31,161 nt of DNA from a virus. Position 1 is the stretch's first letter. Every line of letters starts with the position of its first letter. Below the pieces are notes generated by a model. That model ran no database searches. It worked only from the letters and a program-made list of their open reading frames with translations, and had not been told where the DNA came from. This document shows, piece after piece, positions 9,507 through 27,264 of this stretch. The stretch is taken from the IMG/VR virus record IMGVR_UViG_3300008448_014967, positions 1-31,161 of that record; one strand, 5' to 3'. Both the position numbers and the translations under genes were made by a program.

Positions 9507-11117
9507 ATGAATATTGCACAAATTGTAACAGAGAGCGGGCTAATGTTTGACAGACATACCAATTCCTCTTACACGTTACCGGTTACTAGCTTTGATGAGA
9601 TAAAAATACAACCAAACGATGTTGCAACATCTACTGTAATAAACGGAAAATTTAAAAAACTCTACGATAATTTTTTGTATCTTTATAAATCATCCCGTAT
9701 AGCATCAAACATGGTACCCATTTCATCTATTGCTATATGTGGTGTAAGTGCGTCTTCAAATGACCCTGTAACATGGAAGCGTGGCTTAAGTTCCAGTGCT
9801 TTTACGAAAATGGCTTTTGGTGGCTTTTACGGCGAGCTCAACGTAACAGATACTGCTGTTGTAAACAATACGGACTTAGATCGCTATTCTATCTTTTTTT
9901 CGACAGGTAAAGACATTGTTGTTTATAATAGCGATACTGATGATAAGACGCTCACCCTTGTATTAAGTACAAATCAACTCGCTATTAATTACAACGTAAA
10001 ATGGCAAAATATTGTTGATATCGAATTCGGTACAAAAAATCAAATGTATGTTCTTGATAGAGGTGCAAATAGATTAGCAAAATATGATGTATCAGGATTT
10101 ACTACCGATGATAGTATACTAAATAACAAGATTTTATACAAAGACAGCATAGGTGGCTACGGTACTTACGATGATAGGTTGTTATTTAACTCACCCCGTG
10201 CCATGACGATATACAATACTGATGTAATAGTGCTCGATAATGATAACGGTTGCGTTAAGAGGTATGACGAAAATTTAAATTGGCGAATAACTTATAGATT
10301 GTTTAGAGACTTTTTATCAGCTTACCCAGTTGATATTGATTGTGACGACTATGGTAATTTTTATATCTTAACTGAAAATGGTTATTTGTTAAAATATGAT
10401 AATGATTTCTTAACAAAAACAACAATAAACCTGTTGCCTCTTTCAAGTACAGGAGAAGTATTTAAAAGAATAACATTTTCACCCACAGAAGCAAATATAG
10501 GTTATATAACAACTAATAAAAACGTATATAAAGTTACAACAAGTGACGGATTTAATATTATTGGTCCTTATCTTTTTTATCGTAACTATATTAATACTAA
10601 CGAAGACATATTATCTTTTTCTTCACTCTCTTACGGCATAAACGATAAGAATTTTGTTTTTTCAACAAACGGTACAAGGGGTATAATGCGTTTATATTAT
10701 GACAATTTAAATTTATACGATGTTTTATCAATAAAAGACTTTGATGTGTATACTTTTGATGAAATTGCAATTAGTAGATATGAGTATCTACAGAATTGGG
10801 TATTTAACAAATCTATAGCTAAGTTACTTATAAATCATATGCGATTAAGAGACCAAATTACAGGTAAATTTTTAGCAAGAAAAGATAAATTTGAAAATAT
10901 GGTTTTACAGGGTACGAGATATTTACTGCCCGAAGAGCAAGGTAGTTTATTTTTTCAGCAAGATATAACGTATTTTATCGGTGCGAACGAAATTTTTCAA
11001 AATAATATAGTTAACAGATGTCTTGAGAAGATTTTTAATATTCAAGAAGAACTCTACACAGCGTTAATGCTAGATAAAAGGTATATATATGATATGGGGA
11101 AGCCTGTGATTATATAA
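9507..11117 (+). CDS. virion-associated beta-propeller (NHL-like) protein
   Basis: A 536-residue protein, 4 bp after the giant adhesin. It contains several NHL/YVTN-like blade signatures: NQMYVLDRGANRLAKYDVSG, then FNSPRAMTIYNTDVIVLDND, then DCDDYGNFYILTENGYLLKYD. The N-terminus (PNDVATSTVINGKFKKLYDN) resembles a leader seen in the preceding gene (ANDVATNN). The last about 130 residues are helical (LINHMRLRDQITGKF). There are no enzyme motifs. It is likely a partner of the 1152-residue adhesin in the adsorption apparatus, a propeller domain providing protein-protein or glycan contacts. Confidence 0.72.
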   Translation: MNIAQIVTESGLMFDRHTNSSYTLPVTSFDEIKIQPNDVATSTVINGKFKKLYDNFLYLYKSSRIASNMVPISSIAICGVSASSNDPVTWKRGLSSSAFTKMAFGGFYGELNVTDTAVVNNTDLDRYSIFFSTGKDIVVYNSDTDDKTLTLVLSTNQLAINYNVKWQNIVDIEFGTKNQMYVLDRGANRLAKYDVSGFTTDDSILNNKILYKDSIGGYGTYDDRLLFNSPRAMTIYNTDVIVLDNDNGCVKRYDENLNWRITYRLFRDFLSAYPVDIDCDDYGNFYILTENGYLLKYDNDFLTKTTINLLPLSSTGEVFKRITFSPTEANIGYITTNKNVYKVTTSDGFNIIGPYLFYRNYINTNEDILSFSSLSYGINDKNFVFSTNGTRGIMRLYYDNLNLYDVLSIKDFDVYTFDEIAISRYEYLQNWVFNKSIAKLLINHMRLRDQITGKFLARKDKFENMVLQGTRYLLPEEQGSLFFQQDITYFIGANEIFQNNIVNRCLEKIFNIQEELYTALMLDKRYIYDMGKPVII

Positions 11118-11145
11118 TATGTCATGTGGAAAGTACATGTAAAAC

Positions 11146-11153
11146 AATAAATA
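11146..11153 (+). promoter_or_regulatory. T4-late-like promoter element AATAAATA
   Basis: AATAAATA lies in the 42 bp gap after the propeller gene, with 6 bases between it and the ATG at 11160. Just upstream is a weak hairpin, CATGT-ggaaagt-ACATG, with no T-run, which is not convincing as a terminator. Confidence 0.4.
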
Positions 11154-11159
11154 ATTGAA

Positions 11160-11732
11160 ATGGCGACAATTTCTGTAGTAAAATTAAAAGTCAGGCGTGG
11201 TCCTGATAGACAGAGAAAACTTGTAATACTAGATAATGGTGAGTTAGGCTATACGACTGACCCGAGTGCAAATAGACTTTTTGTAGGTGATGGTGTTGCA
11301 AAGGGTGGTATTAGTACTTCAATGAAGTTCTTTTATGGTAGTATTACAACGCCTTCTTCGCTTGTTTATACACAAATAGGTGATCTTGTTTACAATACTG
11401 ATGACACACGTCTTTATATTTTGACAGGGATTGATTCAGATAATTTCCCCGACTATTCAAATAGACAGGCTTACCAGTTTATCGGTACAAGAGCTGATGA
11501 TACTACGCTTACATACAACATTGCAGGAAGGTTGGCTGTTAAAACTAACGGTATCGATGCAGCGCAAATATCTTCTAATGCTTTTGATTTTACTACAGGG
11601 TTTGATAGAGCGACGAGTACTAGTAAAATAAAAATTAATATAAATAACATCGATGCATCTTTACTACCGACTACTAACCCCGGGCCAGGTAAATTATGGA
11701 ACAGTGGAGGATTCGTAAAAGTAGGAACGTAA
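11160..11732 (+). CDS. small fibre protein with Mtd-like N-terminal module
   Basis: A 190-residue protein. Residues 7-52 (LKVRRGPDRQRKL...NGELGYTTD...RLFVGDG) match the pattern found at the N-termini of many phage tail-fibre and hyaluronidase-like proteins and of the Bordetella phage major tropism determinant: [LIV]xxRRGT...L..GE[LI]GYxxDxxRLxxGDG. The remainder is a second short beta-rich segment (IGDLVYNTDDTRLYILTG, which looks like a degenerate copy) and a simple C-terminus. The following gene starts with a homologous module, so the two are probably assembled into the same fibre. Confidence 0.75.
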   Translation: MATISVVKLKVRRGPDRQRKLVILDNGELGYTTDPSANRLFVGDGVAKGGISTSMKFFYGSITTPSSLVYTQIGDLVYNTDDTRLYILTGIDSDNFPDYSNRQAYQFIGTRADDTTLTYNIAGRLAVKTNGIDAAQISSNAFDFTTGFDRATSTSKIKININNIDASLLPTTNPGPGKLWNSGGFVKVGT

Positions 11733-11736
11733 CACT

Positions 11737-13596
11737 ATGGCTATTGAAATCTCTTCAAACAGTGTAGTAAAGATAGTTGTCAGACGCGGTACCGATTCTG
11801 ATAGACGTCTTACATTATTATCTAACGGTGAATTAGGTTACGCGCAGGATGTACAACGTCTTTACATTGGTAATGGTATAACTGCTGGTGGTATACCGGT
11901 TGGAAATAAATTTTTTGGTACCGTACCAACAAGAGCAGCATACTTAGGCCTTGCAGAAGAAGGCGATACGATATTTGACACAACAACAAAGACATTGTAT
12001 GGTCTTGATACTGGTGTTTGGAAGAACATACATCCGAGCTTCCAAGTAAATGTATTTGAACAGAGCTTAAACGGTACGTGGAATCTTTCACCTGATGCTT
12101 TTGCGGCTGCGTTTACGTTTGAACCTACTTACGAGCCATACTCAATAGCTGGGGTACCTAATAAGATAGATTTACATTCTAATTTTTGGTCGTTGTGTTC
12201 GGATTATGGTAGCTTCTATATAGGTGATATTAAAGCACGTACTGTTAAGAATAATTTTGATGCTACGCTTAATGTCGCAGAAGATATATATGTAAATTCA
12301 GGCTTATCAAACCCTAATCAAATACAAATTCTCGCACGTAACACAGCCGGAAATTCTTCCATACGTGCAGTTAGTGGTCTCTTTGATGTCGGCGGTCGTA
12401 CTGGGTTATATTTGACTACTGATAGTAAAAATGCTCAGTATATTGATAATGGTCAGAATGTTTTTATGCTGAATACAGGTGGTACATATAATGCACCTGA
12501 TTTTCGTGTAGAAGGGTTAAGTAGATTCGTCTCTGACTCACATTTCGACAACAACGTTACTATATACGGTAATTTGAGCGTATATGGCGATCTGTCATAT
12601 CTCGAAACTGTTATTGCTACGACAAGCGCTGTAGAAATCATTAACAGAAATAAAAATGCTATTGCTCTTAAAGTATCCCAATTAGATAATGCTGCGGACC
12701 AGACACTTGCTCAGTTTAATAGCGACACAGGTAACCCGGTAATGCAAATAAAGGACGGACCTTATGTAGGCATTAATGCGCCTTCTACTGAAATAAGTAC
12801 TACAGCTAATTTTTCGGTATACGGTAAAACGTTGTTTACTACAAATAATAGTACCTTTACAATAAATGCAGGTACCGGTAGCACAAATCTTAACGGAGCG
12901 ATTAACATAGGCGGAACAGTAGATTTCGTTACCGGTCCGACAGCAAGCACTGTTTCAAATAGGTTGCTTGTATTAAATGCGAGTAATCAAATTGAATATC
13001 GTGATATAAGCTCGAGCGCGTGGGCAGCAGACTTTTTAAAAGGGACACTTACCGATAATTATGTACCGAAGAAGCAAGCTAGTATTACTAATACACTTAC
13101 GAATTCACAAATATTCGATAATGGTACAAGTGTAGGTATAAATACCGCTATACCTAATGCTATATATAGGCTTGAAGTAAATGGGGCATTTAAGAGTACT
13201 TCTGTCAATACCGGCGCTGTTGATTGTACGAGCGTTACAACCAATAATGGTAATATCACCATGGGAACAGGTGATTTATCTTGTGAAAATGTTAACGCGA
13301 CGGGAGACGTTACTGCTTTCTTTACATCAGATAGACGTCTTAAAAACAACATAACACCTATTACATCACCATTGGAGAAACTAATGCAGATTTCCGGTGT
13401 TAACTTTGAATGGGATGAAACTTTACAAGATTTACATAAGGGTACTGATGTTGGTGTCATAGCACAAGAGATAGAAACAGTTTTACCTGAAGCGGTGACA
13501 ACCCGCGTTAACGGCTATAAGGCTGTTAACTATGAAAAAGTTATACCTTTACTTGTAGAAGCAATAAAAGAGTTGCAAGAGAAACTAAATAAATAA
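11737..13596 (+). CDS. tail fibre/spike with C-terminal peptidase S74 chaperone domain
   Basis: A 619-residue protein, 4 bp after its N-terminal paralogue. Residues 8-52 repeat the Mtd-like module (VVRRGTDSDRRLTLLSNGEL..., RLYIGNGITAGG). The middle is a long beta-rich shaft. The last 89 residues form an intramolecular chaperone of endosialidase (peptidase S74): SDRRLKNNI with candidate catalytic Ser531 and Lys536, then GVNFEWD, DVGVIAQEIETVLPEAV, and a final helix NYEKVIPLLVEAIKELQEK. In characterised members this domain drives trimerisation of the spike and then cuts itself off before the Ser, so the mature protein would end near residue 530. No glycan-cleaving domain could be recognised in the shaft. 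Confidence 0.93.
   Translation: MAIEISSNSVVKIVVRRGTDSDRRLTLLSNGELGYAQDVQRLYIGNGITAGGIPVGNKFFGTVPTRAAYLGLAEEGDTIFDTTTKTLYGLDTGVWKNIHPSFQVNVFEQSLNGTWNLSPDAFAAAFTFEPTYEPYSIAGVPNKIDLHSNFWSLCSDYGSFYIGDIKARTVKNNFDATLNVAEDIYVNSGLSNPNQIQILARNTAGNSSIRAVSGLFDVGGRTGLYLTTDSKNAQYIDNGQNVFMLNTGGTYNAPDFRVEGLSRFVSDSHFDNNVTIYGNLSVYGDLSYLETVIATTSAVEIINRNKNAIALKVSQLDNAADQTLAQFNSDTGNPVMQIKDGPYVGINAPSTEISTTANFSVYGKTLFTTNNSTFTINAGTGSTNLNGAINIGGTVDFVTGPTASTVSNRLLVLNASNQIEYRDISSSAWAADFLKGTLTDNYVPKKQASITNTLTNSQIFDNGTSVGINTAIPNAIYRLEVNGAFKSTSVNTGAVDCTSVTTNNGNITMGTGDLSCENVNATGDVTAFFTSDRRLKNNITPITSPLEKLMQISGVNFEWDETLQDLHKGTDVGVIAQEIETVLPEAVTTRVNGYKAVNYEKVIPLLVEAIKELQEKLNK
13588..13595 (+). promoter_or_regulatory. T4-late-like promoter element AATAAATA
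   Basis: AATAAATA spans the last codons of the S74 fibre gene, 16 bases before the ATG at 13612. It would drive the small beta-rich gene downstream. The Asn-Lys codons there may produce this string by chance, so confidence is low. Confidence 0.3.
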
Positions 13597-13611
13597 GTAA
13601 TATTAAAAGAT

Positions 13612-14190
13612 ATGGCGATAATTAATCCAAACGGAACTGTAAGTGTAGGTAATGCCGCGGGTGCTGGACGCAGTGTCAACGGGCTTACGAGCGGTACACC
13701 TAACGTACAAACGAATATCACTACTAAAGAATCGACATATATGGGCGGTAACCCTGCAAGAATAACTGCAGCAGGCGCTGTTTGTATGCCGAGACAAGCA
13801 CAAATCACAACACCAATACCAAACGTCTTTAATGGTAATGCTATAATTTACAATAACGTACAAACTACAGCATGGAGAAGTACAGCATTATCAGAATTCC
13901 GTGCGGCCTATACAACGAGACCATCGTTGACATGGGCGTCCTCAAATACCGGTAATTTTAATACTGGTACTATAACAATCACTGTAACACCACCTGCTGA
14001 TGCAAATATTGCTGGTACATGTTCAGTATATTTAGCAGGCGTTTCTACTGCTTGGGAGACTGTAAATACAAGCAATCAAAGACAATATACTGTTGCCAGA
14101 GGTACAGTGTATACTGCATATGTTAAAGATATAAATAACTGTGGTGCAAATATGGAAATATCAGTTGGAAATATTCAATATACTGGTTAA
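13612..14190 (+). CDS. small beta-rich putative virion protein
   Basis: A 192-residue protein rich in Thr, Asn, Ala and Gly, with a low-complexity start (GNAAGAGRSVNGLTSGTP). It then has alternating strands such as GTITITVTPPADANIAGTCSVYLAG and YTVARGTVYTAYVKDIN, which look like an Ig-like or other beta-sandwich fold. Four Cys residues could form contacts but no metal motif is evident. Its position directly after the S74 spike suggests a fibre cap or accessory decoration protein. The family was not recognised. Confidence 0.65.
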   Translation: MAIINPNGTVSVGNAAGAGRSVNGLTSGTPNVQTNITTKESTYMGGNPARITAAGAVCMPRQAQITTPIPNVFNGNAIIYNNVQTTAWRSTALSEFRAAYTTRPSLTWASSNTGNFNTGTITITVTPPADANIAGTCSVYLAGVSTAWETVNTSNQRQYTVARGTVYTAYVKDINNCGANMEISVGNIQYTG

Positions 14191-14194
14191 TTTT

Positions 14195-15631
14195 ATGGAA
14201 CTTGATTGCTATACATTTTACGCAAATATTATTTCGAGAAGTCTTGCATACGTAGAAATAAACACGGATGATCCGAATTTCTGCAACGCATATGCAGTTA
14301 CACGTAATCAATATATACTTGATCATTTCGGTATATATGATTTCCCTTTTAAGCATTACGATGCTAGCACTCAACAGCTTCAAGCTGTTGATGTCCGTAC
14401 AGGTGAACCGGTAGTTATTAACCTACAAGAGATTAATACAACAGCAATATACGGAGATGCAAATTTACTCTCACCACCTACTGTCGGAAACCCCATCTTT
14501 TTTAATACTTTAAGTGAAAGAGATATTGCAGATATACAGCTACCATTCTGTACTTCAATAAAAGCGGCAAAAGATGATGGGTGTTACAATGACTCGCCAT
14601 ACGTACGCGAAATAAATTTTTTGGCTGAGGTCATGAGATTTAAAGAATTTGTACATGAAGTTAATCTGCAGCCCGGTGATGAAATGATGCTCTTTTATCT
14701 TAATGATGAGTTTCATCGTAAATGTAATACAAAATTACGCAAGTATGTACAAAGTCATACCAAGCACATAAAATTTGCAGCTATTGCGCATGTGTTAAGA
14801 CAGTGCTTTGCTGCCTTGCAGCAAGAAAGTGATCCTATTACGACGTTTGAAGACGTTGAGCTGTTTTTTAGTGATGTATCAAAAATAAGAAATGTATGGG
14901 CAGCTTATTTAAAGCAACTCGTAGAGCGACAGATTGCAAAATATAATGCTGAGTATAAGCAGATATGTGATACATATTTTGCAGGTGATGAGCAAAGTAG
15001 AGAGCGTGATTTTATTAAAATACAATACGACAGAGCTATTTTTTCGCTTACTAACGTTAATATCGATGAAGAGCTTAAGAAATTCGGTGATAATGTGTTC
15101 TTTATTTTACGATACATACCACCAGACATTGATACGCCGAAAGAACTTGAGGGTATTATGTTATTTTCTGGATATGAAAATCACGTAATTGACACGCTTA
15201 GCAAAAACGGCGTCGATCTCGATGAGTCGTTGTTTACTTTTGATGGTCTTGATCCGTTATGGTGGACGTACAGTGGAATGCTCGGTCTTAATAAAGATGG
15301 TGCACCTTCTTTCTCTGAGCAGTTAAACAACTTATATATTGATAAAATAAAAAACATTAGATTTGAGCAAATTAAACGCCATTCTAATGATATTGTTGAG
15401 ATGGTAAAGCAAGAAGCGAGTGAACTCGACGAAGATGATATCAAGGAAATTATTGACAGTATGCAAGATTTTGTGTCCTTTAAAGAGAGACTTGATTCAT
15501 TTACGAACATCGTAGATGTCGTACAGTACTGGCCATCAGTATTATTACCTCTACCGTCGTATGTAGCGCGACTTACAGGTGCAATAAATCACACTATAGA
15601 CTTGCATAATCTCGTTCAAGCAAATTCTTAG
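14195..15631 (+). CDS. hypothetical protein, possibly virion-associated (478 aa)
   Basis: The frame opens further upstream, but ATG 14195 lies 4 bp after the preceding stop and avoids a long overlap, giving 478 residues. The N-terminal about 140 residues are mixed strand/helix (MELDCYTFYANIISRSLAYVEI...). From about residue 150 onward the protein is strongly helical and charged (LKQLVERQIAKYNAEYKQI; VKQEASELDEDDIKEIIDSM). No catalytic motif, signal peptide or membrane span was seen. It closes the structural block, so a virion or assembly role is plausible but unproven. Confidence 0.65.
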   Translation: MELDCYTFYANIISRSLAYVEINTDDPNFCNAYAVTRNQYILDHFGIYDFPFKHYDASTQQLQAVDVRTGEPVVINLQEINTTAIYGDANLLSPPTVGNPIFFNTLSERDIADIQLPFCTSIKAAKDDGCYNDSPYVREINFLAEVMRFKEFVHEVNLQPGDEMMLFYLNDEFHRKCNTKLRKYVQSHTKHIKFAAIAHVLRQCFAALQQESDPITTFEDVELFFSDVSKIRNVWAAYLKQLVERQIAKYNAEYKQICDTYFAGDEQSRERDFIKIQYDRAIFSLTNVNIDEELKKFGDNVFFILRYIPPDIDTPKELEGIMLFSGYENHVIDTLSKNGVDLDESLFTFDGLDPLWWTYSGMLGLNKDGAPSFSEQLNNLYIDKIKNIRFEQIKRHSNDIVEMVKQEASELDEDDIKEIIDSMQDFVSFKERLDSFTNIVDVVQYWPSVLLPLPSYVARLTGAINHTIDLHNLVQANS

Positions 15632-15673: not shown

Positions 15674-16414
15674 ATGATAGTAAATTCACTATGGATAGGT
15701 AAAGGTTTTTCTTTACTAGAAAAACTTACAATGAAAAGTTTTATCGATCATGGGTATGACTTTCACCTGTGGGTGTATAGTAAGGAGTTAGCGAAGCTCT
15801 GTCCTGCGGGTGTTAAAGTATGTGATGCAAATCAGATTATTACTAGCGACCGTATTTTTACTTACGAAGGTGGAGGTGATTGTAGACGTGGTTCTCTTGG
15901 TGGGTTTTCTGATTTATTTAGATACTATCTACTTCTCAGTGTAGACGGTATCTATGTAGATATGGATGTAACGTGCTTATCACCATTTGTGATAGAAAGT
16001 GATTACGGTTTTAGACCACATAGTAATGTTACTGCAGTAGCAAATATTCTTAAAGCACCAAAAAATAGCGATTTTCTTAAACGCTGCATAGAATTAACAG
16101 AAAATCATATAGACAAGCACAATACTAACTGGGTTAAGCCTGTGCAATTATTTTCTGATGTAGTGCACGAGTTCAATTACGAGAAGTATATATTCCCTTA
16201 TGAGTATTTCGGATGCGATAAGTCAGTTGATACAAATAATTACAAAACTAAAAATTATTTCCTGTATCGTAATTTGTTACCGAAATATGGTATACATTGG
16301 TGTCATGAATGCTCGTACGGTACATGGTCATACAGTGATGTATATAACTGGAATGAGCCGAAACCCCTTTCTGTTTATTACAATTTGCTTCTTAAGCATA
16401 AACTTATCGATTAA
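15674..16414 (+). CDS. DXD glycosyltransferase, GT32/capsular polysaccharide type
   Basis: A 246-residue protein. It starts MIVNSLWIGKGFSLLEKLTM, the usual beginning of Gly_transf_sug/GT32-like (OCH1-like) enzymes. It carries GGFSDLFRYYLLLSVDGIYV followed by the nucleotide-sugar/metal-binding DXD motif D96-M97-D98 and the expected TCLSPF after it. The fold is GT-A and the enzyme would move a sugar from a nucleotide donor. It is the first gene of a same-strand carbohydrate cluster and is separated from the asparagine-synthase-like gene by only 3 bp, so the two are probably co-expressed. Donor and acceptor are unknown. Confidence 0.88.
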   Translation: MIVNSLWIGKGFSLLEKLTMKSFIDHGYDFHLWVYSKELAKLCPAGVKVCDANQIITSDRIFTYEGGGDCRRGSLGGFSDLFRYYLLLSVDGIYVDMDVTCLSPFVIESDYGFRPHSNVTAVANILKAPKNSDFLKRCIELTENHIDKHNTNWVKPVQLFSDVVHEFNYEKYIFPYEYFGCDKSVDTNNYKTKNYFLYRNLLPKYGIHWCHECSYGTWSYSDVYNWNEPKPLSVYYNLLLKHKLID

Positions 16415-16417
16415 CAG

Positions 16418-18091
16418 ATGTGTAGCATTTTTGTAGCAATAACAAAGAATAATAAAAGAGTTGATCACCAGGCATGTATTTCTGCCTTACATACAACAAA
16501 ATCACGTGGACCTGATAATACATATTACACTTCTAACGGTAGTGTTTTTATTGGTGTAAATGTTCTTTCGCTTACTGGATCTACTTCAGTTAAAGACTAC
16601 ACATGTGATAAAGGTATTCTCGGGTTTAATGGTGAAATTTATAATTATAATAAGCAACAGTACGATTCCGACACACAGGCTCTCTTTTTAAAGCTTATAT
16701 CGTCAAATGACAAGTGTAAAGTAACGCGCGAGATTGAAGGCATGTTTTGTTATGCATTTTATGATAAAACATCACACGACCTTTATTTAGCGCGCGATGT
16801 TTTCGGTGAGAGAACACTTTACATATATGAAAATGAGGATTTATTACTTGCTTCATCGACTCTTCATGGTATAGAAAAATATATTGGAAAATTGCATATT
16901 GCTGAAGATCTCATCTCTTCGTATTTTTATACTCGACATTTTTTAACGTATAATAGTACTGTATATAAAAATGTGAGGCAAATCTTGCCTGGTACAATAG
17001 AAGTGTATAATGTACGTAACTATTCAAAGAGAGTATATACATATGAAAGTATAGCAGATTATATTTGTAGTAAACAAATGCAAGAATATGCGCGTGCTAA
17101 TGATGAGGAGATGGTGGAGGAGCTAGATAGTACTCTTGACCATGTAATGAAACAGATGTTACCGCTTCATCATAGCAGTGTCAGTTTTTCAGGGGGTATT
17201 GATTCGTCGCTTATAGCGCATTATACTGCAAAACATACTAACGACTACACACTCATCGGTATAAATTGTGTAGGTAAGGATTATATCTCTAACGATCTTA
17301 AAAAATTTCAACCATACTTTAATAATCAGATAATAACATTAGATATTAAGGAAAAGCAGTGGTGTAGCACTGTAAAAGATAGTTATAATATCACTCTGCA
17401 ACCTCTTGGGTCACATAATTATTGCACAAAAGTATTTCTTGCAAAGTATTTACAAAAGAAAGGTATAAAAGTGTTGTTTGGTGGTGAAGGTGCTGATGAA
17501 TTATTCGGTGGCTATGATTTTTACCATATAATTGACGATACGTGTAGATATAATATATCACCATATTCGAGTAAATTAACCTCTGTTATCGACTTCGCTC
17601 ATAAAATAAGTGAAAATCCTCAATCATACCTCGATAAAATATGGGAAAAAGCGTATAGTATATATAACAGTGCGGTTCTATCGACATCTTTCACCGATAC
17701 ATCACTTGTAGTTAATGATGATGGAGTACGTAATACCGATCAGATAGCAGGCTGGTATGGTATTGAGGGTAGAACGCCTTTCTTACATAAAAAAATGCTT
17801 AAATTTGCATTAAATTTACCTTCAAAGTATAAACGCGGAAAGCCCCTCTTAAGGAAGTTGTTTGAAAAAAAGTTTCCTACTGTGTCTATTGAAAAAAAAC
17901 AAGGTTTTGCAGGTTTTCCAAATGAATCGCAAAAGTATTATGCTCTTGATAATACTTTTACATTATTTAATATAAATGATCTAACAAAATACGATACTGC
18001 AACACAGTGGAAATTACTCAATATTTATTATTTTTATGAAAGCTATAATAGTAGGAACATCAGCAGAGCTTCTCGAGCACGAGCATGGTGA
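16418..18091 (+). CDS. asnB: glutamine-dependent asparagine synthase-like amidotransferase
   Basis: A 557-residue class II glutamine amidotransferase. The start is fixed by the N-terminal nucleophile Cys2 (MCSIF; MCGI in most members). Glutaminase-domain residues are present: RGPD (30-33), NGE (71-73), and SDT (84-86). The ATP-pyrophosphatase domain has the P-loop SFSGGIDSS (256-264) and GGEGADELFGGY (355-366). EGRTPFLH and the terminal KKQGFAGF block are also conserved. Both active sites look intact, so it should transfer ammonia from Gln to a carboxylate. Because it sits between glycosyltransferases, it may amidate a sugar acid (as AsnB-like WbpS-type enzymes in O-antigen clusters are thought to) instead of making Asn. 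The 3' end overlaps the next gene by 56 bp. Confidence 0.93.
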   Translation: MCSIFVAITKNNKRVDHQACISALHTTKSRGPDNTYYTSNGSVFIGVNVLSLTGSTSVKDYTCDKGILGFNGEIYNYNKQQYDSDTQALFLKLISSNDKCKVTREIEGMFCYAFYDKTSHDLYLARDVFGERTLYIYENEDLLLASSTLHGIEKYIGKLHIAEDLISSYFYTRHFLTYNSTVYKNVRQILPGTIEVYNVRNYSKRVYTYESIADYICSKQMQEYARANDEEMVEELDSTLDHVMKQMLPLHHSSVSFSGGIDSSLIAHYTAKHTNDYTLIGINCVGKDYISNDLKKFQPYFNNQIITLDIKEKQWCSTVKDSYNITLQPLGSHNYCTKVFLAKYLQKKGIKVLFGGEGADELFGGYDFYHIIDDTCRYNISPYSSKLTSVIDFAHKISENPQSYLDKIWEKAYSIYNSAVLSTSFTDTSLVVNDDGVRNTDQIAGWYGIEGRTPFLHKKMLKFALNLPSKYKRGKPLLRKLFEKKFPTVSIEKKQGFAGFPNESQKYYALDNTFTLFNINDLTKYDTATQWKLLNIYYFYESYNSRNISRASRARAW

Positions 18092-18671
18092 TTATATTGA
18101 TAGCTTTGATTATGTCGCTAGATCTATTTCTGTCGCGGAGTTTCCAGGATACGAAACACACGTAGGTACCAAAACTAATATGTTTTGGTCAAAGTATCAA
18201 TATCTTTTTCGGTTTAAGTATATATTACAAACATATTGTAATGATTTATTATTACTTGAAGAAGACCCTGATGAATATAGAGAGAGCTTTTGTATAAACC
18301 ATCGGTATGAGCGTTATAATCGGTTGTTTTTTGATTTATGGTATGCAATGCTATCCTCTAAACACAATTTAAAAAACATTTTTTACTATAGTAGAAAAAA
18401 CTTACACGATTTACATAAGAAGATGGGGTACAGATCGCATAACGATTGCAACACGCCAACAGTCTATTCAAGCGCAGGTGCACGTGTGTTAGATTTTTTT
18501 GTCAACAATACAGACTGTTTTAATGAAATATGGGTCACGGGGTTTTCTTTTTTTGATAAGGCTACGTATTTTAACCCTGCAACTAATCATATGGTACGAG
18601 AGCATTGCTACTATAAAGAAAAATACTTTTACAAAAATCTTTTAAAAGAGAAAAAAATATATGAACTCTGA
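18036..18671 (+). CDS. GT29 sialyltransferase-like glycosyltransferase, copy 1 (divergent)
   Basis: A 211-residue member of a tandem family of five. The sialylmotif-L-like N-terminus is KAIIVGTSAELL ... GDYIDSFDYVARS ... GYETHVGTKT (GTKT at 44-47). The sialylmotif-S-like region is YSSAGARVLDFF...IWVTGFSFF. The motif-VS H-x4-E is H190-CYYK-E195. Oddities: the usual G-N-[SG] of motif L is GTS, and VVRMG is VARSI, so nucleotide-donor binding may be altered. It begins inside the 3' end of the amidotransferase gene (56 bp overlap), yet the match to its paralogues begins right at this ATG, supporting the start. It ends with an 11 bp overlap into copy 2. Confidence 0.82.
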   Translation: MKAIIVGTSAELLEHEHGDYIDSFDYVARSISVAEFPGYETHVGTKTNMFWSKYQYLFRFKYILQTYCNDLLLLEEDPDEYRESFCINHRYERYNRLFFDLWYAMLSSKHNLKNIFYYSRKNLHDLHKKMGYRSHNDCNTPTVYSSAGARVLDFFVNNTDCFNEIWVTGFSFFDKATYFNPATNHMVREHCYYKEKYFYKNLLKEKKIYEL

Positions 18672-19434
18672 CTTACATAGCGTAGTAATAGTAGGTAACA
18701 GTTTGAATTTATTAGAGACCAAGAGAGGCGATGTAATAGATAACTGTGATATTGTAGTACGTATGGGGAGTTACTGCATCGATGGTTATGAAGAATATGT
18801 TGGTACGAAGACAGATATTTTTTGTACAATTGCAAATATGTTTTGCAAAAATTCACCTGATGATTCTGTTCTTTTTGCACTCGACCCTGGAATGACTTCT
18901 TTTAATTTTAAAAAAATTTTATTTTTAGAATATGATTGCGATGACTATTATGAATCCACTGTACATGGTAATTCTTGGGGTAGCGGTAGTATACCGATAC
19001 CGCCTGCTGCTGCTGGCGCTTTATATTTTAAAAAACTCTGCTCTTCAGATAAGTTCAAATTAGCGTTTCAAAATCATATTGTTATTGATAGAATGATTCT
19101 TGATTATTTTATAGAGTACTTGCAGCTTGTTAATAAGGATGTATGTGTTGAGTTTTATAATAGCCTTTGGCGATCGAGGCTTTTTGCTAACTTTAATAGT
19201 ATATTTCCGCAAATGGACATAGCGGTACCATCAAAAGGAATGTATATAATCGATTATATTTTAAGAACGTTTAAAGACAGTAAAATATACGTTTGCGGTT
19301 TTGATGGATTTAGGACCACAAATTATTGGAGGCAGCTCGGTCCACTAACATACACTTTTAGGAGCCATCAGCCTGCAAAAGAACAGTATATGTATAAAAA
19401 ATTATTACGCGAAGGAATTATACATGAGCTGTAA
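18661..19434 (+). CDS. GT29 sialyltransferase-like glycosyltransferase, copy 2
   Basis: A 257-residue enzyme and the longest of the five paralogues. Motif L: VVIVGNSLNLLETKRGDVID (N13 as donor-contacting Asn), VVRMGS, and GYEEYVGTKTDIF. Motif S: PSKGMYIIDYIL...IYVCGFDGF. Motif VS: H236-QPAK-E241, followed by the family's shared C-terminus YKKLLREGIIHEL. GT29 enzymes typically use CMP-sialic acid or a related donor; bacterial and phage members may differ. The start overlaps copy 1 by 11 bp and the end overlaps copy 3 by 11 bp. No transmembrane anchor is present, so it is presumably cytosolic. Confidence 0.87.
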   Translation: MNSDLHSVVIVGNSLNLLETKRGDVIDNCDIVVRMGSYCIDGYEEYVGTKTDIFCTIANMFCKNSPDDSVLFALDPGMTSFNFKKILFLEYDCDDYYESTVHGNSWGSGSIPIPPAAAGALYFKKLCSSDKFKLAFQNHIVIDRMILDYFIEYLQLVNKDVCVEFYNSLWRSRLFANFNSIFPQMDIAVPSKGMYIIDYILRTFKDSKIYVCGFDGFRTTNYWRQLGPLTYTFRSHQPAKEQYMYKKLLREGIIHEL

Positions 19435-20140
19435 TAACATCATCATAGTAGGTAACGGTGGCTGCTTACTTAACTCTAAAAATGGTAGTAAGATCGACTC
19501 TTATGATTATGTTGTACGTATGGGAAACTGTATAACTCGTGGATACGAGGAACATACCGGGACAAAGACAGATTTATACAGAGCTTCATGGGATAGATTA
19601 CTTCACAATATCAATAAAACAAATATATATAGACCTATCGATCTTAGTTTCACATTTCATACACTTCTTCTTCTCGAGCGACAACCCGATACTTTTCATG
19701 AGACGGTATCAACAATGCTTTTAAAAAACAATACAAAATTATTTAAAAAGCCTTTTTTTCCAGAAATTTCATTTCCAGATTTTATTTTTTTAAAAAGAAA
19801 TGAGCGTATTACACATGAATGTTGTTTAGAATATTTTACTAAGAAATATAATATACGTACAGTAGAGCATATGGATATTGATACAAGAGTAAATGTTTTT
19901 TTACAGGTTAATACCCCAGCGAAACAAAATATGGTATTACCGTCGAGCGGTATACTCACACTCGCACATATTATTAAGACGAGACCTAATGATAATATTA
20001 CTATTACTGGGTTTGATGGTTTTACTACGAGATATTATTGGCGTGATTATGAAACATACTTTGATGGTCATAGCTCTTACCGTGAAAAGATGTTTATAAA
20101 ACAATTAGTGAAAGATGGTAGAATAAGCATACTCAATTAA
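19424..20140 (+). CDS. GT29 sialyltransferase-like glycosyltransferase, copy 3
   Basis: A 238-residue paralogue. Motif L: NIIIVGNGGCLL with N11, then KIDSYDYVVRMGN and GYEEHTGTKTDLY. Motif S: LPSSGILTLAHII...ITITGFDGFTTRYYW. Motif VS: H216-SSYR-E221. The variable middle (about residues 60-160) differs strongly from the other copies and probably sets acceptor choice. It is joined to copy 2 by an 11 bp overlap and separated from copy 4 by 7 bp. Function is inferred from the motifs; donor and acceptor are unknown. Confidence 0.87.
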   Translation: MSCNNIIIVGNGGCLLNSKNGSKIDSYDYVVRMGNCITRGYEEHTGTKTDLYRASWDRLLHNINKTNIYRPIDLSFTFHTLLLLERQPDTFHETVSTMLLKNNTKLFKKPFFPEISFPDFIFLKRNERITHECCLEYFTKKYNIRTVEHMDIDTRVNVFLQVNTPAKQNMVLPSSGILTLAHIIKTRPNDNITITGFDGFTTRYYWRDYETYFDGHSSYREKMFIKQLVKDGRISILN

Positions 20141-20147
20141 CTCAAAG

Positions 20148-20846
20148 ATGAAACGTATTATTATTATCGGTAATAGCTGCAGCCTCTTAGAACAAAAAAA
20201 CGGGGATATAATTGATGGTTATGACTATATTGTAAGAATGGGCGGTACACCACGCATTAAAGGTTATGAAAAACATGTGGGTACCAAAACTAACATGTAT
20301 TGTATGAAGTGGTTCAAATATTTTAATGTAGAAGTGGGAATTAATGATACCAATTTTGGGCAGATGCGTGAAAAGTTAGAGATAGAATATGATGATGTAT
20401 TGTGTCTGTTACAAGACCCTGATAATTTCTACGAAGTAGCGACACCTTTTCAGCGATATGAAAAAAATTCTTTAAACAGATCGTTTTACTATCAAATAGG
20501 TGATAGATATCTACATGATTCTGCAATCTTAAACTTTAACTTACAGCAAAAGCAATGGTATTTCTTTAATAGTATAGATATGCAACAGCTTGTATGCTAT
20601 TTACAGGGATATGATTCTAATATACGTTATAATAATGGTATTGAACCTACAGCTGGACTATGTGTTATTTGGTTTTTTATGCAAAATTTTTCAAATTGTG
20701 AAATAACAGTTACGGGATTTGATGGATTTAAGACCGGACATTATTGGAAGCCGGCAATTAGTACTTTTTTTCAAAGCCACAATGGTTTAAGCGAGTGGAT
20801 GTTTATAAAAAAATTAATAAAACGCGGTGATATAAGACTATTATGA
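20148..20846 (+). CDS. GT29 sialyltransferase-like glycosyltransferase, copy 4
   Basis: A 232-residue paralogue. Motif L: RIIIIGNSCSLLEQKNGDII (N9), YDYIVRMGG, and GYEKHVGTKTNMY. Motif S: EPTAGLCVIWFFMQ...ITVTGFDGFKTGHYW. Motif VS: H211-NGLS-E216, then MFIKKLIKRGD. The central region (residues about 60-160) is unique among the five. It ends in an ATGA overlap with copy 5, so the two are likely translationally coupled. It shares the nucleotide run ttgatggatttaagac with copy 5 near the motif-S end, a trace of duplication. Confidence 0.87.
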   Translation: MKRIIIIGNSCSLLEQKNGDIIDGYDYIVRMGGTPRIKGYEKHVGTKTNMYCMKWFKYFNVEVGINDTNFGQMREKLEIEYDDVLCLLQDPDNFYEVATPFQRYEKNSLNRSFYYQIGDRYLHDSAILNFNLQQKQWYFFNSIDMQQLVCYLQGYDSNIRYNNGIEPTAGLCVIWFFMQNFSNCEITVTGFDGFKTGHYWKPAISTFFQSHNGLSEWMFIKKLIKRGDIRLL

Positions 20847-21523
20847 ATATTGTAGTGGTAGGAAATGGTCGCAGCGATGTTATGAGAGGTAATCTAATAG
20901 ATAGTTTTGATTATGTAGTGCGTATGGGTTCGTGTTGCATCGATGGATACGAGCATTATGTTGGTACGAAGACAAGTATGCTGCGTTCATCATGGGATAG
21001 ATTTTTTGGAAAAAAAGAAGATGGTACTCATGAATTTGTAAGTAAAATTATTGGTTTTACTGATTTTCTCTTTTTAGAGCCGTATTTTGAGCCATTTTAT
21101 GAAACAATGCATTTCGGCAATGTGTATCATTTGTATAAGATTTTTAATAAGCCACGTTTTTTACAAAAGAGATTTATTAGCATTAAAAACGAGCGTATTT
21201 TGCATGAAATGTTTATAAGAGAGCATCTTTCACAAAAAAATATCTTTTATTATAATATAAAAGATAGGGTTTCGCTTTTTTGTGAGTATAATAGTATGTA
21301 TAATGACAGAGTCTTACATATGCCTTCAGCAGGCCTCTTTACTATTGATTATATAGTAAAAACGTTTACTGATAGTGATATCTATATCACAGGCTTTGAT
21401 GGATTTAAGACAAAATATTACTGGAGAAGTAATGATGAATACTTTGATTCTCATAGCTCCATTAAAGAACAGTTATATCTTAAAAAATTACTTACTAAAG
21501 GTATCATTAAAGAGTTGCCATAA
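20843..21523 (+). CDS. GT29 sialyltransferase-like glycosyltransferase, copy 5
   Basis: A 226-residue paralogue. Motif L: NIVVVGNGRSDVMRGNLID (N8), DYVVRMGS, and GYEHYVGTKTSML (GTKT at 41-44). Motif S: MPSAGLFTIDYIVK...IYITGFDGFKTKYYW. Motif VS: H204-SSIK-E209 followed by LYLKKLLTKGIIKEL. Its motif-L DNA shares an 18-base identical run with copy 2 (18796-18813 and 20957-20974), so copies 2 and 5 may be related by a fairly recent duplication. It is followed by a 32 bp AT-only-like gap before the GT8-like gene. Confidence 0.87.
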   Translation: MNIVVVGNGRSDVMRGNLIDSFDYVVRMGSCCIDGYEHYVGTKTSMLRSSWDRFFGKKEDGTHEFVSKIIGFTDFLFLEPYFEPFYETMHFGNVYHLYKIFNKPRFLQKRFISIKNERILHEMFIREHLSQKNIFYYNIKDRVSLFCEYNSMYNDRVLHMPSAGLFTIDYIVKTFTDSDIYITGFDGFKTKYYWRSNDEYFDSHSSIKEQLYLKKLLTKGIIKELP

Positions 21524-21555
21524 TAGTTTTTTTTATATATTATATACTTTTATAT

Positions 21556-22245
21556 ATGGTCAATATTTACGTTGGTTGGGATAGTAGAGAGGTAGAGGCT
21601 TATAATGTATGCTGTGAGTCAATTAAGAGCCGAACACAGAAAAGTATTAATTATAATATAATACCTCTTAAAAAGCACGAATTACAGACGAGCGGGTTGT
21701 ATTCGAGAAATTCTGATCCGCTTGCATCAACAGAATTTACATATACAAGATTTCTCGTACCTCTTTTACAAGACTATAAAGGTCTCGCAATTTTTTGTGA
21801 TTGTGATTTTCTGTGGCTTGAAGGTATAGATGCGTTGTTACATGATATAGATATAGATACACACAAAGCTGTTTACGTCTGTAAGCATGATTATACCCCT
21901 TCTCAAGAGATAAAAATGGACAATAAAGTTCAATCCTCTTACCCGAGAAAAAATTGGTCAAGTTTGATTGTATGGAATTGTGATCATGAAAAAAATAAAG
22001 TTCTCACAAAAGAAAAAGTTAATAGTGAGACTGGAGCTTTTCTTCATAGATTTCAATGGTTAGATGATAATGAAATCGGTGATATAAATATTCAATGGAA
22101 CTGGCTTGTGGGTGAGTACTGCGAGGAGCAGCACGGATCACCAAAAGCTTTACATTATACAAATGGAGGACCGTGGTTTGAAAATTATAAAAATTGTCCT
22201 TACGCTTCTGTTTGGAATAAAGAACGCGATAGAATTGCATTTTAA
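21556..22245 (+). CDS. GT8-like glycosyltransferase
   Basis: A 229-residue GT-A-fold enzyme. It starts MVNIYVGWDSREVEAYNVCC, typical of a bacterial family related to GT8. Features in order: STEFTYTRFLVPLL, then the DXD motif D82-C83-D84 (IFCDCDFLW), VCKHDYTP, SSYPRKNWSSLIVWNC, FQWLDDNEIGDINIQWNWLVGEY, and LHYTNGGPWFENY. The full set of conserved blocks is present, so it is probably active. It is the last clear glycosyltransferase of the plus-strand island. Donor sugar and acceptor are not predictable. A 32 bp T/A-rich gap precedes it, with no ribosome-binding site visible. Confidence 0.87.
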   Translation: MVNIYVGWDSREVEAYNVCCESIKSRTQKSINYNIIPLKKHELQTSGLYSRNSDPLASTEFTYTRFLVPLLQDYKGLAIFCDCDFLWLEGIDALLHDIDIDTHKAVYVCKHDYTPSQEIKMDNKVQSSYPRKNWSSLIVWNCDHEKNKVLTKEKVNSETGAFLHRFQWLDDNEIGDINIQWNWLVGEYCEEQHGSPKALHYTNGGPWFENYKNCPYASVWNKERDRIAF

Positions 22246-22516
22246 GTTTACTTCTCATCGCCGCATTACATATAAAAAGCAGAGTTGCAATTTAAGGCGA
22301 CATCAACCCAAGAAACAAGATTATAAAAAACGCAATAAACTCGCCGGTCAATTTTTTGATTTTAATCAGCCTTGCCCGCCTATGATAAAAAATTGCATGG
22401 AATTGCGTGTACAGTACGAGAATGAAGTGAAAAAGCTCGAAAGCTATAAACTCTGTACACAGTGTAGTATTTTATTTTTGAGACAAAATATTATTGCATC
22501 TTTTGAAGTTGACTGA
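22235..22516 (+). CDS. small four-Cys protein, copy A (start uncertain)
   Basis: The frame carries FFDFNQPCPPMIKNCMELRV...LCTQCSILFLRQ, clearly paralogous to the protein at 23443-23670. The Cys pattern is C-x6-C-x19-C-x2-C, suggesting a zinc-ribbon-like fold. It also has a basic N-terminal extension (RHQPKKQDYKKRNK). There is no ATG between the upstream stop codon region and the Cys block except far inside the GT8-like gene (22163). TTG at 22235 would give 93 residues and an 11 bp overlap with that gene, the same overlap as two GT29 junctions. ATG 22163 is the alternative. The 3' end overlaps the convergent radical SAM gene by 26 bp. Function unknown. Confidence 0.6.
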   Translation: MHFKFTSHRRITYKKQSCNLRRHQPKKQDYKKRNKLAGQFFDFNQPCPPMIKNCMELRVQYENEVKKLESYKLCTQCSILFLRQNIIASFEVD

Positions 22517-23369
22517 TTATATCAAAACTCGATTTACCGTAAAGTGTACCGTTAGTACTACAATTCTTACATGCATCATCGATACGTTTACCGTTTGCTA
22601 AATTATGCCTTACATCGGTCAACTGTTTACTAAACCAAAGATCATAAAAAGATGTATTCATTATATTACCAAGACCTGTTTGCTGCCTGTGCCAATCATT
22701 GCAGCATAAAACAATATCACCATTCCAATCTATTGTAATCCTATAAAATGGTATAAAGCATTGTTGCTTTACTTTATTAAATTTAATATTTGTTACAGCG
22801 CCTGCTCTGTTGTTAAAATTCCACTCTTCAACTGTCTGCTCTAACGTCTGACTCTCTTTATCGTACCAAAGCCGTCTTAGTGCATATTTTTTAAAAGGTA
22901 TTTTAGCAAACATTTGTTCTCGTGCAATAGCTTGATCTTCACCGTCATAACAATCTACAACAATTCTATCTACATGATCTTTTATTTTTTCTACGTCATC
23001 ACAGGTTAAAAAATCACCGTTTGTTGTGAGCTCTACATAGCACTCACGTAGCTCGTTCTTAATGTGAATAATATAATCGAGTATATTAGAATTGAGCAGT
23101 GGTTCGCCGAACCCTGAGATATGTATCGCTCCTTTATAGTTATTTTCCTTGAGTTGTTCAATAAGGCGATCTATAACCTTTCGATCCATTTGTAATTTTC
23201 TGTTCGGGTAAACTGCGGAATCATGCCTCGGGCAAAATACACATTTACGGTTACAAAGCTCTGTAACATTTAATTCTATAGTTGTAAGACCTATCAATTT
23301 ACCATATCTCTGCTCTTCAATAAATTGTTTATGAATAATATCACGCGTGTTTATATGATCTAACGACAT
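22491..23369 (-). CDS. radical SAM protein with C-terminal SPASM domain
   Basis: A 292-residue protein. The radical SAM cluster motif C39-x3-C43-x2-C46 (CNRKCVFC) binds the 4Fe-4S cluster that cleaves S-adenosylmethionine, and the GE-type motif is SGFGEPLL. The C-terminal SPASM-like module has C204, C222-C223, C267 and C270, for auxiliary Fe-S clusters. SPASM enzymes usually modify peptides, but family members also act on sugars and other small molecules. It is on the opposite strand to its neighbours and lies exactly between two paralogous small four-Cys proteins, which raises the possibility of a functional link. Substrate unknown. Confidence 0.9.
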   Translation of the reverse strand: MSLDHINTRDIIHKQFIEEQRYGKLIGLTTIELNVTELCNRKCVFCPRHDSAVYPNRKLQMDRKVIDRLIEQLKENNYKGAIHISGFGEPLLNSNILDYIIHIKNELRECYVELTTNGDFLTCDDVEKIKDHVDRIVVDCYDGEDQAIAREQMFAKIPFKKYALRRLWYDKESQTLEQTVEEWNFNNRAGAVTNIKFNKVKQQCFIPFYRITIDWNGDIVLCCNDWHRQQTGLGNIMNTSFYDLWFSKQLTDVRHNLANGKRIDDACKNCSTNGTLYGKSSFDIISQLQKMQ

Positions 23370-23420
23370 TGTTAAATATTTTAAGCTATTATTTTTGTTA
23401 TTGCAACATATTATAAAGTA

Positions 23421-23428
23421 TATAAGTA
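23421..23428 (+). promoter_or_regulatory. T4-late-like promoter element TATAAGTA
   Basis: TATAAGTACT is identical to the element at 2321. It lies in the 73 bp divergent gap between the radical SAM gene (minus) and the small four-Cys gene (plus), with 14 bases between the octamer and ATG 23443. The same gap carries TATAAT on the minus strand (about 23411-23416) that could serve the radical SAM gene. Confidence 0.45.
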
Positions 23429-23442
23429 CTATATACGGTTAC

Positions 23443-23670
23443 ATGAATCCTGTATTAACATTTTTTGAACTTGATCAGCCTTGTCCCTCAGAGATACCGC
23501 TATGTAATGAATTACGTAAGAAGTATATTCAGGATGTAGAGTTAGCGAGTGCAAAACACTGTAAAAAGTGCGAATTGACAAGCATAAAAGCAAAATATAC
23601 AACAGTGGTATGGGAGCAATACATGGAACATATGACTTCAAAAAATAAAAAACAAGATATACTTTTATGA
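23443..23670 (+). CDS. small four-Cys protein, copy B
   Basis: A 75-residue protein. The frame opens earlier, but ATG 23443 follows the promoter-like element and starts MNPVLTFFELDQPCP, aligning with copy A. Conserved features shared with copy A: FF[DE][FL][ND]QPCP, C-x6-C, ELR..Y...V, then C-x2-C (Cys 14, 21, 40 and 43). The pattern suggests a small zinc-binding fold. The stop overlaps the next gene as ATGA. It is divergent from the radical SAM gene. I do not recognise a named family. Confidence 0.72.
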   Translation: MNPVLTFFELDQPCPSEIPLCNELRKKYIQDVELASAKHCKKCELTSIKAKYTTVVWEQYMEHMTSKNKKQDILL

Positions 23671-25285: not shown

Positions 25286-25962
25286 TGCTTGTTTTTGATG
25301 CAGAAAAGCACGTTTATAAAAACAAGTATACAGGTGATGTTTATACATCTGTAACTACCCTGCTGGGTAAGTATAAAGCTCCATTCGACTCACAGGCTGC
25401 GGCACTCAAAGTAGCTCAGCGTGAAAAATGTTCGGTAGAAGAGATCCTTGCAAGATGGAAAGAAGCGAATGAAGCCAGCAAAGTTTATGGTACAAAAATA
25501 CATAGTGCTATAGAGACATATCATAAATCGGGTTACGTAGAACCGGAGTATAAAGATCTGATTAGCTCTTACAGGCAACTCGGTATTGTCGATGAGCTCG
25601 ATGAAATACAGTCAGAGCAGCAAGTTTATCTGCATGAATATCAAATTGCTGGTACAGCAGATATTATTCGACATGAAAAAAATGGTTGTTTTAGTATCTT
25701 TGATATAAAGACAAACAAAAAATTTAATTTAGCTAATCAGTACAATACTAGGCTACTTCCACCCTTTGACCATCTCACTTCTTGCGAATACACTATATAT
25801 GCTTTACAGCTCTCTCTTTATGCATATATGTATCAAAATAATACCGGTAGAAATGTAAATCAATTGGGGATATTTTTTTACGAACGTGAGAAAAATAAGT
25901 TTATATACTACCCGGTAATATACTTAAAGCATGATATCAAAAGAATACTTCAAACATTATGA
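25285..25962 (+). CDS. PD-(D/E)XK exonuclease, RecB/Cas4-like
   Basis: A 225-residue nuclease. Motifs in order: YGTKIHSAIE with His73 (the GTxxH motif of RecB-family nucleases), E111 before EYQIAGTADII with D126, D140-I-K142 (FDIKTNK) completing the PD-(D/E)XK core, and Q175-x3-Y179 (ALQLSLYAYM). All expected catalytic residues are present. Phages use such enzymes in recombination and DNA end processing. The start is coupled to the preceding gene by TAATG and the end overlaps the deaminase gene by ATGA, indicating one operon. Confidence 0.85.
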   Translation: MLVFDAEKHVYKNKYTGDVYTSVTTLLGKYKAPFDSQAAALKVAQREKCSVEEILARWKEANEASKVYGTKIHSAIETYHKSGYVEPEYKDLISSYRQLGIVDELDEIQSEQQVYLHEYQIAGTADIIRHEKNGCFSIFDIKTNKKFNLANQYNTRLLPPFDHLTSCEYTIYALQLSLYAYMYQNNTGRNVNQLGIFFYEREKNKFIYYPVIYLKHDIKRILQTL

Positions 25963-26414
25963 ATAGACCAAACTGGGACGAGCATGCATTGATGTTAGCT
26001 TATACTGCTACTTGCAGAAGCCCTGATCCTCATGTAAAAGTTGGTGCTTGTGCACTCGATATACATAATAATGTTCTCGGTGTAGCATACAATGGTCTTG
26101 CACCTGGCAAAGAAGTAACGAAGTTCTTCTGGGATGATAGAGATAAAAGACGTCCGTTTGTAATACACGCTGAAACTAATCTTCTTTCACGCATACAAAT
26201 AGGAGCTGTACATACTATTGCCTGTACATTATTACCTTGTTCTTCATGTGCGAGAGCTATAGCTGCACATAAGGCGAAGCGTGTTATATACAGCGAAACT
26301 TATGACCGTGATACCGAAGGTCTTCGTATATTTGATTTCTATAACATTGAAGTTATAAATATACCAAAAAACCGTGTAGTAGAATATATTAAAACAGCAT
26401 ATGAAATTCATTGA
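25959..26414 (+). CDS. deoxycytidylate (dCMP) deaminase-like enzyme
   Basis: A 151-residue zinc-dependent deaminase. The zinc ligands and catalytic Glu are H70-A-E72 (IHAETN) and P93-C94-x2-C97 (LLPCSSCARA), the standard dCMP/cytidine deaminase set. The N-terminal CRSPDPHVKVGACALD and AYNGLAPG are also typical. dCMP to dUMP conversion would feed ThyX encoded at 1077-1724. The length fits dCMP deaminases of phages. ATGA overlap with the nuclease and a 14 bp overlap with the next gene indicate co-translation. A ComE-like or riboflavin-type deaminase is less likely given the context. Confidence 0.88.
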   Translation: MNRPNWDEHALMLAYTATCRSPDPHVKVGACALDIHNNVLGVAYNGLAPGKEVTKFFWDDRDKRRPFVIHAETNLLSRIQIGAVHTIACTLLPCSSCARAIAAHKAKRVIYSETYDRDTEGLRIFDFYNIEVINIPKNRVVEYIKTAYEIH

Positions 26415-27253: not shown

Positions 27254-27264
27254 CAAATTTTTTT
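27231..27264 (+). terminator. weak candidate terminator for the plus-strand operon
   Basis: AATATTTG (27231-27238) can pair with CAAATTTT (27254-27261) with one mismatch around a 15-base loop, and a run of seven T (27258-27264) closes it. The stem is very AT-rich and so weak. It lies exactly where two convergent genes overlap. Confidence 0.22.

Follow-up and report, generated by a model that had tools for sequence, protein, structure and literature searches.

The 31,161-base DNA analyzed here, called the window, is an IMG/VR virus record (IMGVR_UViG_3300008448_014967) taken in full, and the record has no further contigs. Between positions 15674 and 22245 it contains eight complete open reading frames (ORFs) on the plus strand, which encode, in this order, a GT32-like protein, an AsnB-type amidotransferase, five GT29 proteins (copies a to e) and a GT8-like protein (Table 1). 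The GT32 and AsnB genes are 3 bp apart, AsnB overlaps GT29 a by 56 bp, the a/b and b/c overlaps are of 11 bp each, c and d are 7 bp apart, d and e overlap by 4 bp, and the gap between GT29 e and GT8, of 32 bp, is the largest in the cluster. An earlier, sequence-only reading of this DNA had described eight same-strand genes with gaps of at most 32 bp or overlaps, and the ORF list and a spacing script bear this out. A script check found no internal stops from GT32 to GT29 d, and the remaining cluster ORFs are complete in the ORF list. The T4-type late promoter TATAAATA occurred at chance level in the window and in loci L006 and L008, and scans for sigma-70 promoters and terminators gave results near chance, so that the status of the cluster as an operon rests on spacing and synteny.

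The GT29 family is known mostly from eukaryotes. All five middle proteins exceed the curated Pfam cut-off for PF00777 (Glyco_transf_29), at 3.9e-9 to 2.8e-21. Their alignment displays the sialylmotifs L (VGN...GTKT), S (PSxG), III (YW) and VS (H-x4-E), the latter invariant across the five copies, while copy a deviates in motif L, with VGT replacing VGN and ARSIS replacing VRMx. Among 40 GT29 sequences, H216 and E221 are conserved at 90% or more. A profile of 42 viral GT29 sequences matched porcine ST3Gal1 over its length (7e-23), with the catalytic motifs aligned, including the His and Glu of motif VS; it also matched ST6GalNAc2 (2e-18) and ST6Gal1 (about 5e-18), but CstII of family GT42 at just about 1e-9. 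The AlphaFold2 model of copy c (pLDDT 84.5, pTM 0.83) was compared by Foldseek to known structures, and the top 30 PDB matches were all animal GT29 enzymes (E from 4e-9), with moderate query-normalized TM-scores of 0.47–0.58. In the viral library, the same model matched the GT29s of herpesvirus, poxvirus and mimivirus, together with one GT29 from an 'uncultured Caudovirales phage', which indicates that phage GT29s have been annotated previously. By sequence, and for copy c also by fold, the five middle proteins are members of family GT29. CcrColossus gp126, annotated as sialyltransferase-like, was rejected as a GT29 by Pfam. Members of the family were found in 8 of the 398 Pseudomonadota genomes that were sampled, as well as in 1 of 297 genomes of the Pelagibacter family, so GT29 is uncommon in bacteria, though not absent.

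Concerning the other three proteins, the GT32-like one matches PF04488 (Gly_transf_sug) at 1.9e-6, with 28.9 bits versus a cut-off of 23, and its DXD motif is the DMD of VDMDVTC. The AsnB-type protein matches PF00733 (5e-27) and the class-II glutamine amidotransferase domain PF13537 (7e-13), but misses the NCBIfam equivalog cut-off for asparagine synthase (176 versus 267 bits), and for this reason it is named an AsnB-type amidotransferase and not necessarily an asparagine synthetase. The GT8-like protein matches phrog_28018, of unknown function (9e-57); it has no Pfam match, and the scores of its bacterial relatives against PF01501 stay under the cut-off, hence the label 'GT8-like'. Its model (pLDDT 85.2) matches WbbM (1.2e-9) and LgtC (2.4e-7), and also GlyE, a GT8 protein, UGGT and LARGE1, in line with a GT8/GT24-type GT-A fold, and its DCD and C-terminal HYTNGGPW motifs are conserved. 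The motifs listed in the sequence-only reading (DXD in the GT32 and GT8-like proteins, sialylmotifs in the GT29s, amidotransferase sites) are thus present, with copy a as an atypical case, and the assignment of the GT29-like and GT8-like proteins to glycosyltransferase families is upheld by profile and fold searches.

The cluster recurs in a related phage contig, G001 (3300044644_002471, 50,158 bp), where the succession T536-T190-S74-h192-n496-GT32-AsnB-GT29-GT29-GT29-GT29-GT8 has the same order and strand as in the window, and where the cluster follows fibre and baseplate genes. Identities between both contigs are 76–84% for the tail proteins, 67% for GT32, 60% for GT8, 49–57% for the GT29 orthologues, 47% for AsnB and 39% for n496. 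These figures show a more rapid divergence of the island than of the tail genes, with its content retained. The known T4-like relatives of the G001 baseplate wedge protein are distant (about 24% identity) and mostly from cyanophages. The earlier interpretation of the cluster withstood both refuting checks that had been attached to it, on the glycosyltransferase families and on the occurrence in related phages, the cluster being present at the same position in one of them. It finds no support as to a 'near-complete glycan-processing locus', which was overstated: neither a nucleotide-sugar synthesis gene nor a flippase was recognized in the 31-kb window.

The relationships of the GT29 copies were estimated in a maximum-likelihood tree of 71 proteins, whose bootstrap had not fully settled. 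Copies a, c and d each pair with one G001 gene (100/100, 100/99 and 100/98, respectively); the orthologue of a (L006:8631) shares its VGT/ARSIS substitutions, and that of d is L006:9259. Copies b and e are sisters (99/94), and their grouping with the remaining G001 gene (L006:10713) is weak (88/49). In view of this pairing and of the shared G001 relative, b is best read as a probable duplicate of e that arose in the window lineage. The order of the copies differs between the contigs, a-b-c-d-e in the window versus a-d-c-e in G001. A second G001 array consists of four GT29s located among baseplate genes, 74–85% identical, monophyletic at 100/100 and under purifying selection (dN/dS 0.19–0.31). 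Monophyletic arrays are also found in L009 (4 copies) and, for 3 of its 4 copies, in an uncultured phage of 484 kb, and part of the seven copies of L036 group in the tree. These separately monophyletic arrays indicate that tandem GT29 expansion occurred several times, and such independent amplification in related phages suggests that the enzymes are probably a tool for remodelling the host or virion glycan coat. In the L008 array, residues 1–20 and 161–180, on the donor side, are 97–100% identical, while other blocks drop to 57–69%; motifs L and S are fixed and acceptor-side segments divergent, a pattern expected if the donor were fixed and the acceptors varied.

The genomic context of the family links it to CMP-sugar synthesis and to GT8. 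Among the GT29-containing records, a CMP-sugar synthetase (PF02348) occurs in 24 of 50, NeuB in 16 of 50 and a KdsA-type protein in 5 of 50, versus no synthetase in 50 control phage records with GT8 but no GT29 (Fisher p 3e-9); this p value is optimistic, as the control set is smaller (1.19 versus 3.42 Mb, about 8 synthetase-positive records being expected at control size) and its members are closely related. The synthetase lies at most 5 kb from a GT29 in 21 of the 24 positive records, with a median distance of 1.4 kb, compared to 11.7 kb when positions are randomized. Of 25 GT29 records tested, just 7 contained a structural hallmark gene (gp23 or terminase), and so the viral origin of some IMG/VR contigs is not independently proven. 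L038 and L027 each have GT29, NeuB and CMP-synthetase in one operon of overlapping or abutting genes, and in L036:5721-11560, on a contig with a terminase match, seven GT29s interleaved with methyltransferase-like and other genes are followed by CMP-synthetase and NeuB. In L271, a bacterial genome from the Pelagibacteraceae-centred genome sample, a GT29 gene stands in line with a NeuB-like and a CMP-sugar-synthetase-like gene, the labels of the latter two coming from sequence reading. In L074 the genes KdsB-KdsA-GT8-GT29 overlap (KdsA 1e-89; KdsB 3e-36, below cut-off). GT8 adjoins GT29 in 36 loci, including Stenotrophomonas phage DLP_6. Several Rhizobiales have GT8 beside GT29-like genes, these pairs adjoining an apparent GT25-type lipopolysaccharide (LPS) gene, labelled by sequence reading and not by profile search, which connects them with the cell envelope, and Chelativorans multitrophicus DSM 9103 encodes a natural fusion of GT29-like and GT8-like proteins (L207:7323-8690).

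The NeuB-linked GT29s have mostly RxN in sialylmotif L and the GT8-linked ones mostly RxG, in a tally with one misread motif, from L009; the Rhizobiales GT29-like proteins beside GT8 are an exception, as they retain N. The GT8 association changes just twice on the tree, and the independent-pairs test, with nine rows trimmed before motif L scored as not-G, gave no significance. The RxN/RxG split, sharp as it looks, follows the tree and thus marks two subfamilies (clades) rather than independent events. The motif change suggests that donor binding of the window GT29s may differ from that of RxN enzymes, and the RxG of the window, that its donor may not be sialic acid. The context of L074, whose RxG-type GT29 has KdsA and KdsB as neighbours, suggests CMP-Kdo as donor. 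A tentative extension, which we regard as possible rather than probable, would be a prokaryotic GT29 radiation in phages and some bacteria, with one arm (RxN) encoded together with NeuB and CMP-synthetase for nonulosonic acids and another (RxG) that would use CMP-Kdo and is coupled to GT8. Arrays formed repeatedly in phages would conserve the donor site and vary the acceptor site, so that each lineage would have its own repertoire for glycan remodelling.

The interpretation that we favour, with somewhat better than even chances, is that the cluster, placed in the tail-fibre (host-recognition) region of a T4-like marine myophage, works as an operon for glycan assembly, with GT29s using CMP-ulosonates and the host envelope as the most likely target. 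For the donor, acceptor, amidation target and biological purpose we infer the following scheme. The GT32 and GT8 enzymes would attach neutral sugars from NDP donors. The GT29s, as predicted inverting, metal-independent enzymes of sialyltransferase fold, would attach CMP-activated acidic 2-keto sugars (Kdo-like or nonulosonic acid), the donor being supplied by the host or by an unseen part of the genome. The AsnB-type protein would probably amidate the sugar carboxylate. Tandem duplication, followed by divergence of acceptor-facing segments, would have produced a GT29 set with differing acceptors, and the product would alter an LPS-like glycan of the host envelope, so blocking adsorption of competitors or of the phage's own progeny. 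Surface-glycan decoration, on the virion or on the cell, was the role proposed in the sequence-only reading; it is plausible and fits the published view of pelagimyophage islands (PMC7029224).

Several observations weigh against this interpretation. The window is a phage fragment, and no CMP-sugar synthetase, NeuB or KdsA was found in the closest relatives, G001 and G002, or among the window proteins searched, so the donor is assigned by association with more distant GT29 members. At the position of the RxN of animal and NeuB-linked enzymes, copies b–e have RxG and copy a has ARSIS, so that donor binding may differ. Finally, the cluster lies directly 3′ of virion structural genes, a location that would suit virion modification equally.

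This last point leads to a close alternative, which we rate at about one chance in three, namely that the operon acts on the virion of the phage itself and glycosylates its tail fibres or baseplate, tuning adsorption or shielding the particle. It agrees with the position of the cluster, which in both the window and G001 comes after tail-fibre genes, GT32 being separated from the structural gene by about 40 bp, with the second GT29 array among the baseplate genes of G001, and with the GT29s of L009 and L012, also near S74 fibre genes; virion glycosylation is published for mycobacteriophages, as cited in PMC12619734. However, in T4-like marine phages the tail-fibre regions form variable islands where many cargo genes unrelated to fibres accumulate (PMC7029224), and the bacterial GT29-like/GT8 pairs have no virion as substrate. 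This last fact, together with the published view of such islands as O-chain modifiers (PMC7029224), is the reason for leaning to a host-envelope glycan.

A donor of another kind than CMP-ulosonates, such as is implied for the plant GT29 named GALT29A (PMC11288761), is rather unlikely for the phage GT29s. The change of RxN to RxG in the GT8-linked clade, the VGT/ARSIS of copy a and the closest relatives without CMP-sugar synthetase would be in agreement with it, but L074, both RxG and GT8-linked, shares its operon with KdsA and KdsB, and the CMP-site motifs L and S plus the VS histidine are otherwise retained.

A peptide-modification system formed by AsnB and the nearby radical SAM/SPASM genes (two in the window, Table 1), with the glycosyltransferases as unrelated neighbours, seems very improbable: AsnB weakly matches a lasso-peptide cyclase model, but it lies inside the conserved operon, between GT32 and GT29 a, in both phages, no precursor peptide was identified, and radical SAM cassettes have been described alongside glycosyltransferases in tail-fibre islands (PMC7029224). 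Hypermodification of phage DNA, for which there are published glycosyltransferase precedents (Pyle et al. 2024, as cited in PMC12619734) and which would suit the ThyX and dCMP-deaminase-like proteins of the window, is the least credible option, as the proteins searched included no recognizable base hydroxymethylase or DNA kinase, the relatives of GT29 and GT8 have glycans as their substrates and the bacterial GT8 pairs sit among glycan genes.

Table 1. Features of the window, with their positions and supporting matches
Feature	Position (strand)	Evidence
Tail-fibre/structural block immediately upstream of the cluster	2342..15631 (+)	Peptidase_S74 3e-16, Mtd_N, tail PHROGs
S74 chaperone-bearing fibre gene	11737..13596 (+)	Peptidase_S74 3e-16
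GT32-like glycosyltransferase, 246 aa	15674..16414 (+)	PF04488, DXD
AsnB-type glutamine amidotransferase, 557 aa	16418..18091 (+)	PF00733, PF13537; Cys2 and SGGIDSS intact
GT29 copy a (donor-motif variant: VGT, ARSIS)	18036..18671 (+)	PF00777 3.9e-9
GT29 copy b	18661..19434 (+)	PF00777 1.9e-11
GT29 copy c (copy used for structure model)	19424..20140 (+)	PF00777 2.8e-21
GT29 copy d	20148..20846 (+)	PF00777 1.5e-14
GT29 copy e	20843..21523 (+)	PF00777 1.2e-9
GT8-like glycosyltransferase, 229 aa	21556..22245 (+)	phrog_28018 9e-57; predicted fold
Small frame	22106..22516	
First radical SAM/SPASM protein	22491..23369 (-)	
Small frame	23395..23670	
dCMP-deaminase-like protein	25959..26414	weak match to anti-phage dCTP deaminase model
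479-aa protein	27240..28679	no family match
Second radical SAM/SPASM protein	28664..29785 (-)	near NCBIfam N_Twi_rSAM (150 vs 170 bits)

With respect to the neighbouring genes, the two small frames flank the first radical SAM gene and have the common pattern CPxxIxxC...C..C; the first of them has a counterpart after GT8 in L006 (12101-12493). The second radical SAM gene overlaps that of the 479-aa protein. Radical SAM genes recur with GT8/GT29 islands in the window and in L009, where positions 4688-12744 contain GT8, a radical SAM gene, four GT29s alternating with other genes and a second radical SAM gene. In the cultured cyanophage Synechococcus phage S-SCSM2R (L165:9001-12526), a GT8-like gene, two genes for unknown proteins, KdsB and, on the opposite strand, KdsA were observed; both unknown proteins lack a Pfam match and could be transferases that escaped detection.

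Phages show an expansion of intact GT29 genes, complete in their sialylmotifs and associated with genes for CMP-nonulosonate or CMP-Kdo synthesis. If the enzymes are active, phages would control acidic surface sugars, compact GT29 enzymes of about 230 aa would be available for glycan synthesis, and the cluster would offer a testable system for phage-host competition over a surface glycan. Literature searches of open-licence PMC papers gave no report of phage GT29 arrays. Glycosyltransferase-rich tail-fibre islands are already known (PMC7029224), while a GT29 array in such an island appears to be new.

The nearest known system is the host recognition cluster of pelagimyophages (T4-like SAR11 phages), a variable island with tail fibres, glycosyltransferases (GT8 the commonest) and radical SAM cassettes, which is read as modifying the host O-chain against coinfection (PMC7029224). 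The window shares with it the T4-like phage context and the combination of tail fibres, glycosyltransferases and radical SAM genes in one island, but it has in addition the five-copy GT29 array and the amidotransferase; a term search of PMC7029224 found neither sialyltransferase nor asparagine synthetase. The pelagimyophage cluster is bordered by VrlC and gp14 and its host is SAR11; in the relative of the window, baseplate genes lie upstream of the cluster. Stenotrophomonas phage DLP_6 (L163) resembles the window in that a GT8-like gene overlaps a GT29 gene, but it has a single GT29, reversed order and no AsnB, and tail fibres are not adjacent in the stretch read.

At the enzyme level, a 2014 review places bacterial sialyltransferases outside GT29 (PMC4202792), and the profile of viral GT29s matches the bacterial GT42 enzyme CstII far less strongly than GT29 enzymes, with which the eukaryote-type sialylmotifs are shared. 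The window copies have in common with animal GT29s (ST3Gal1, ST6GalNAc2, ST8SiaIII) the fold, as modelled for copy c, and the sialylmotifs L, S, III and VS, with its H-x4-E region, but differ from them in being short (about 210–257 aa) and in tandem, in having RxG for RxN (b–e) and in an identity of only about 15–20% in structural alignments. Arabidopsis RCKT1/MGP2 is a GT29 genetically implicated as a CMP-Kdo transferase (PMC11288761). It is a plant Golgi enzyme that acts on pectin, unlike the phage enzymes. Its proposed donor is CMP-Kdo in place of CMP-sialic acid, and a Kdo-like donor may likewise serve the phage GT29s.

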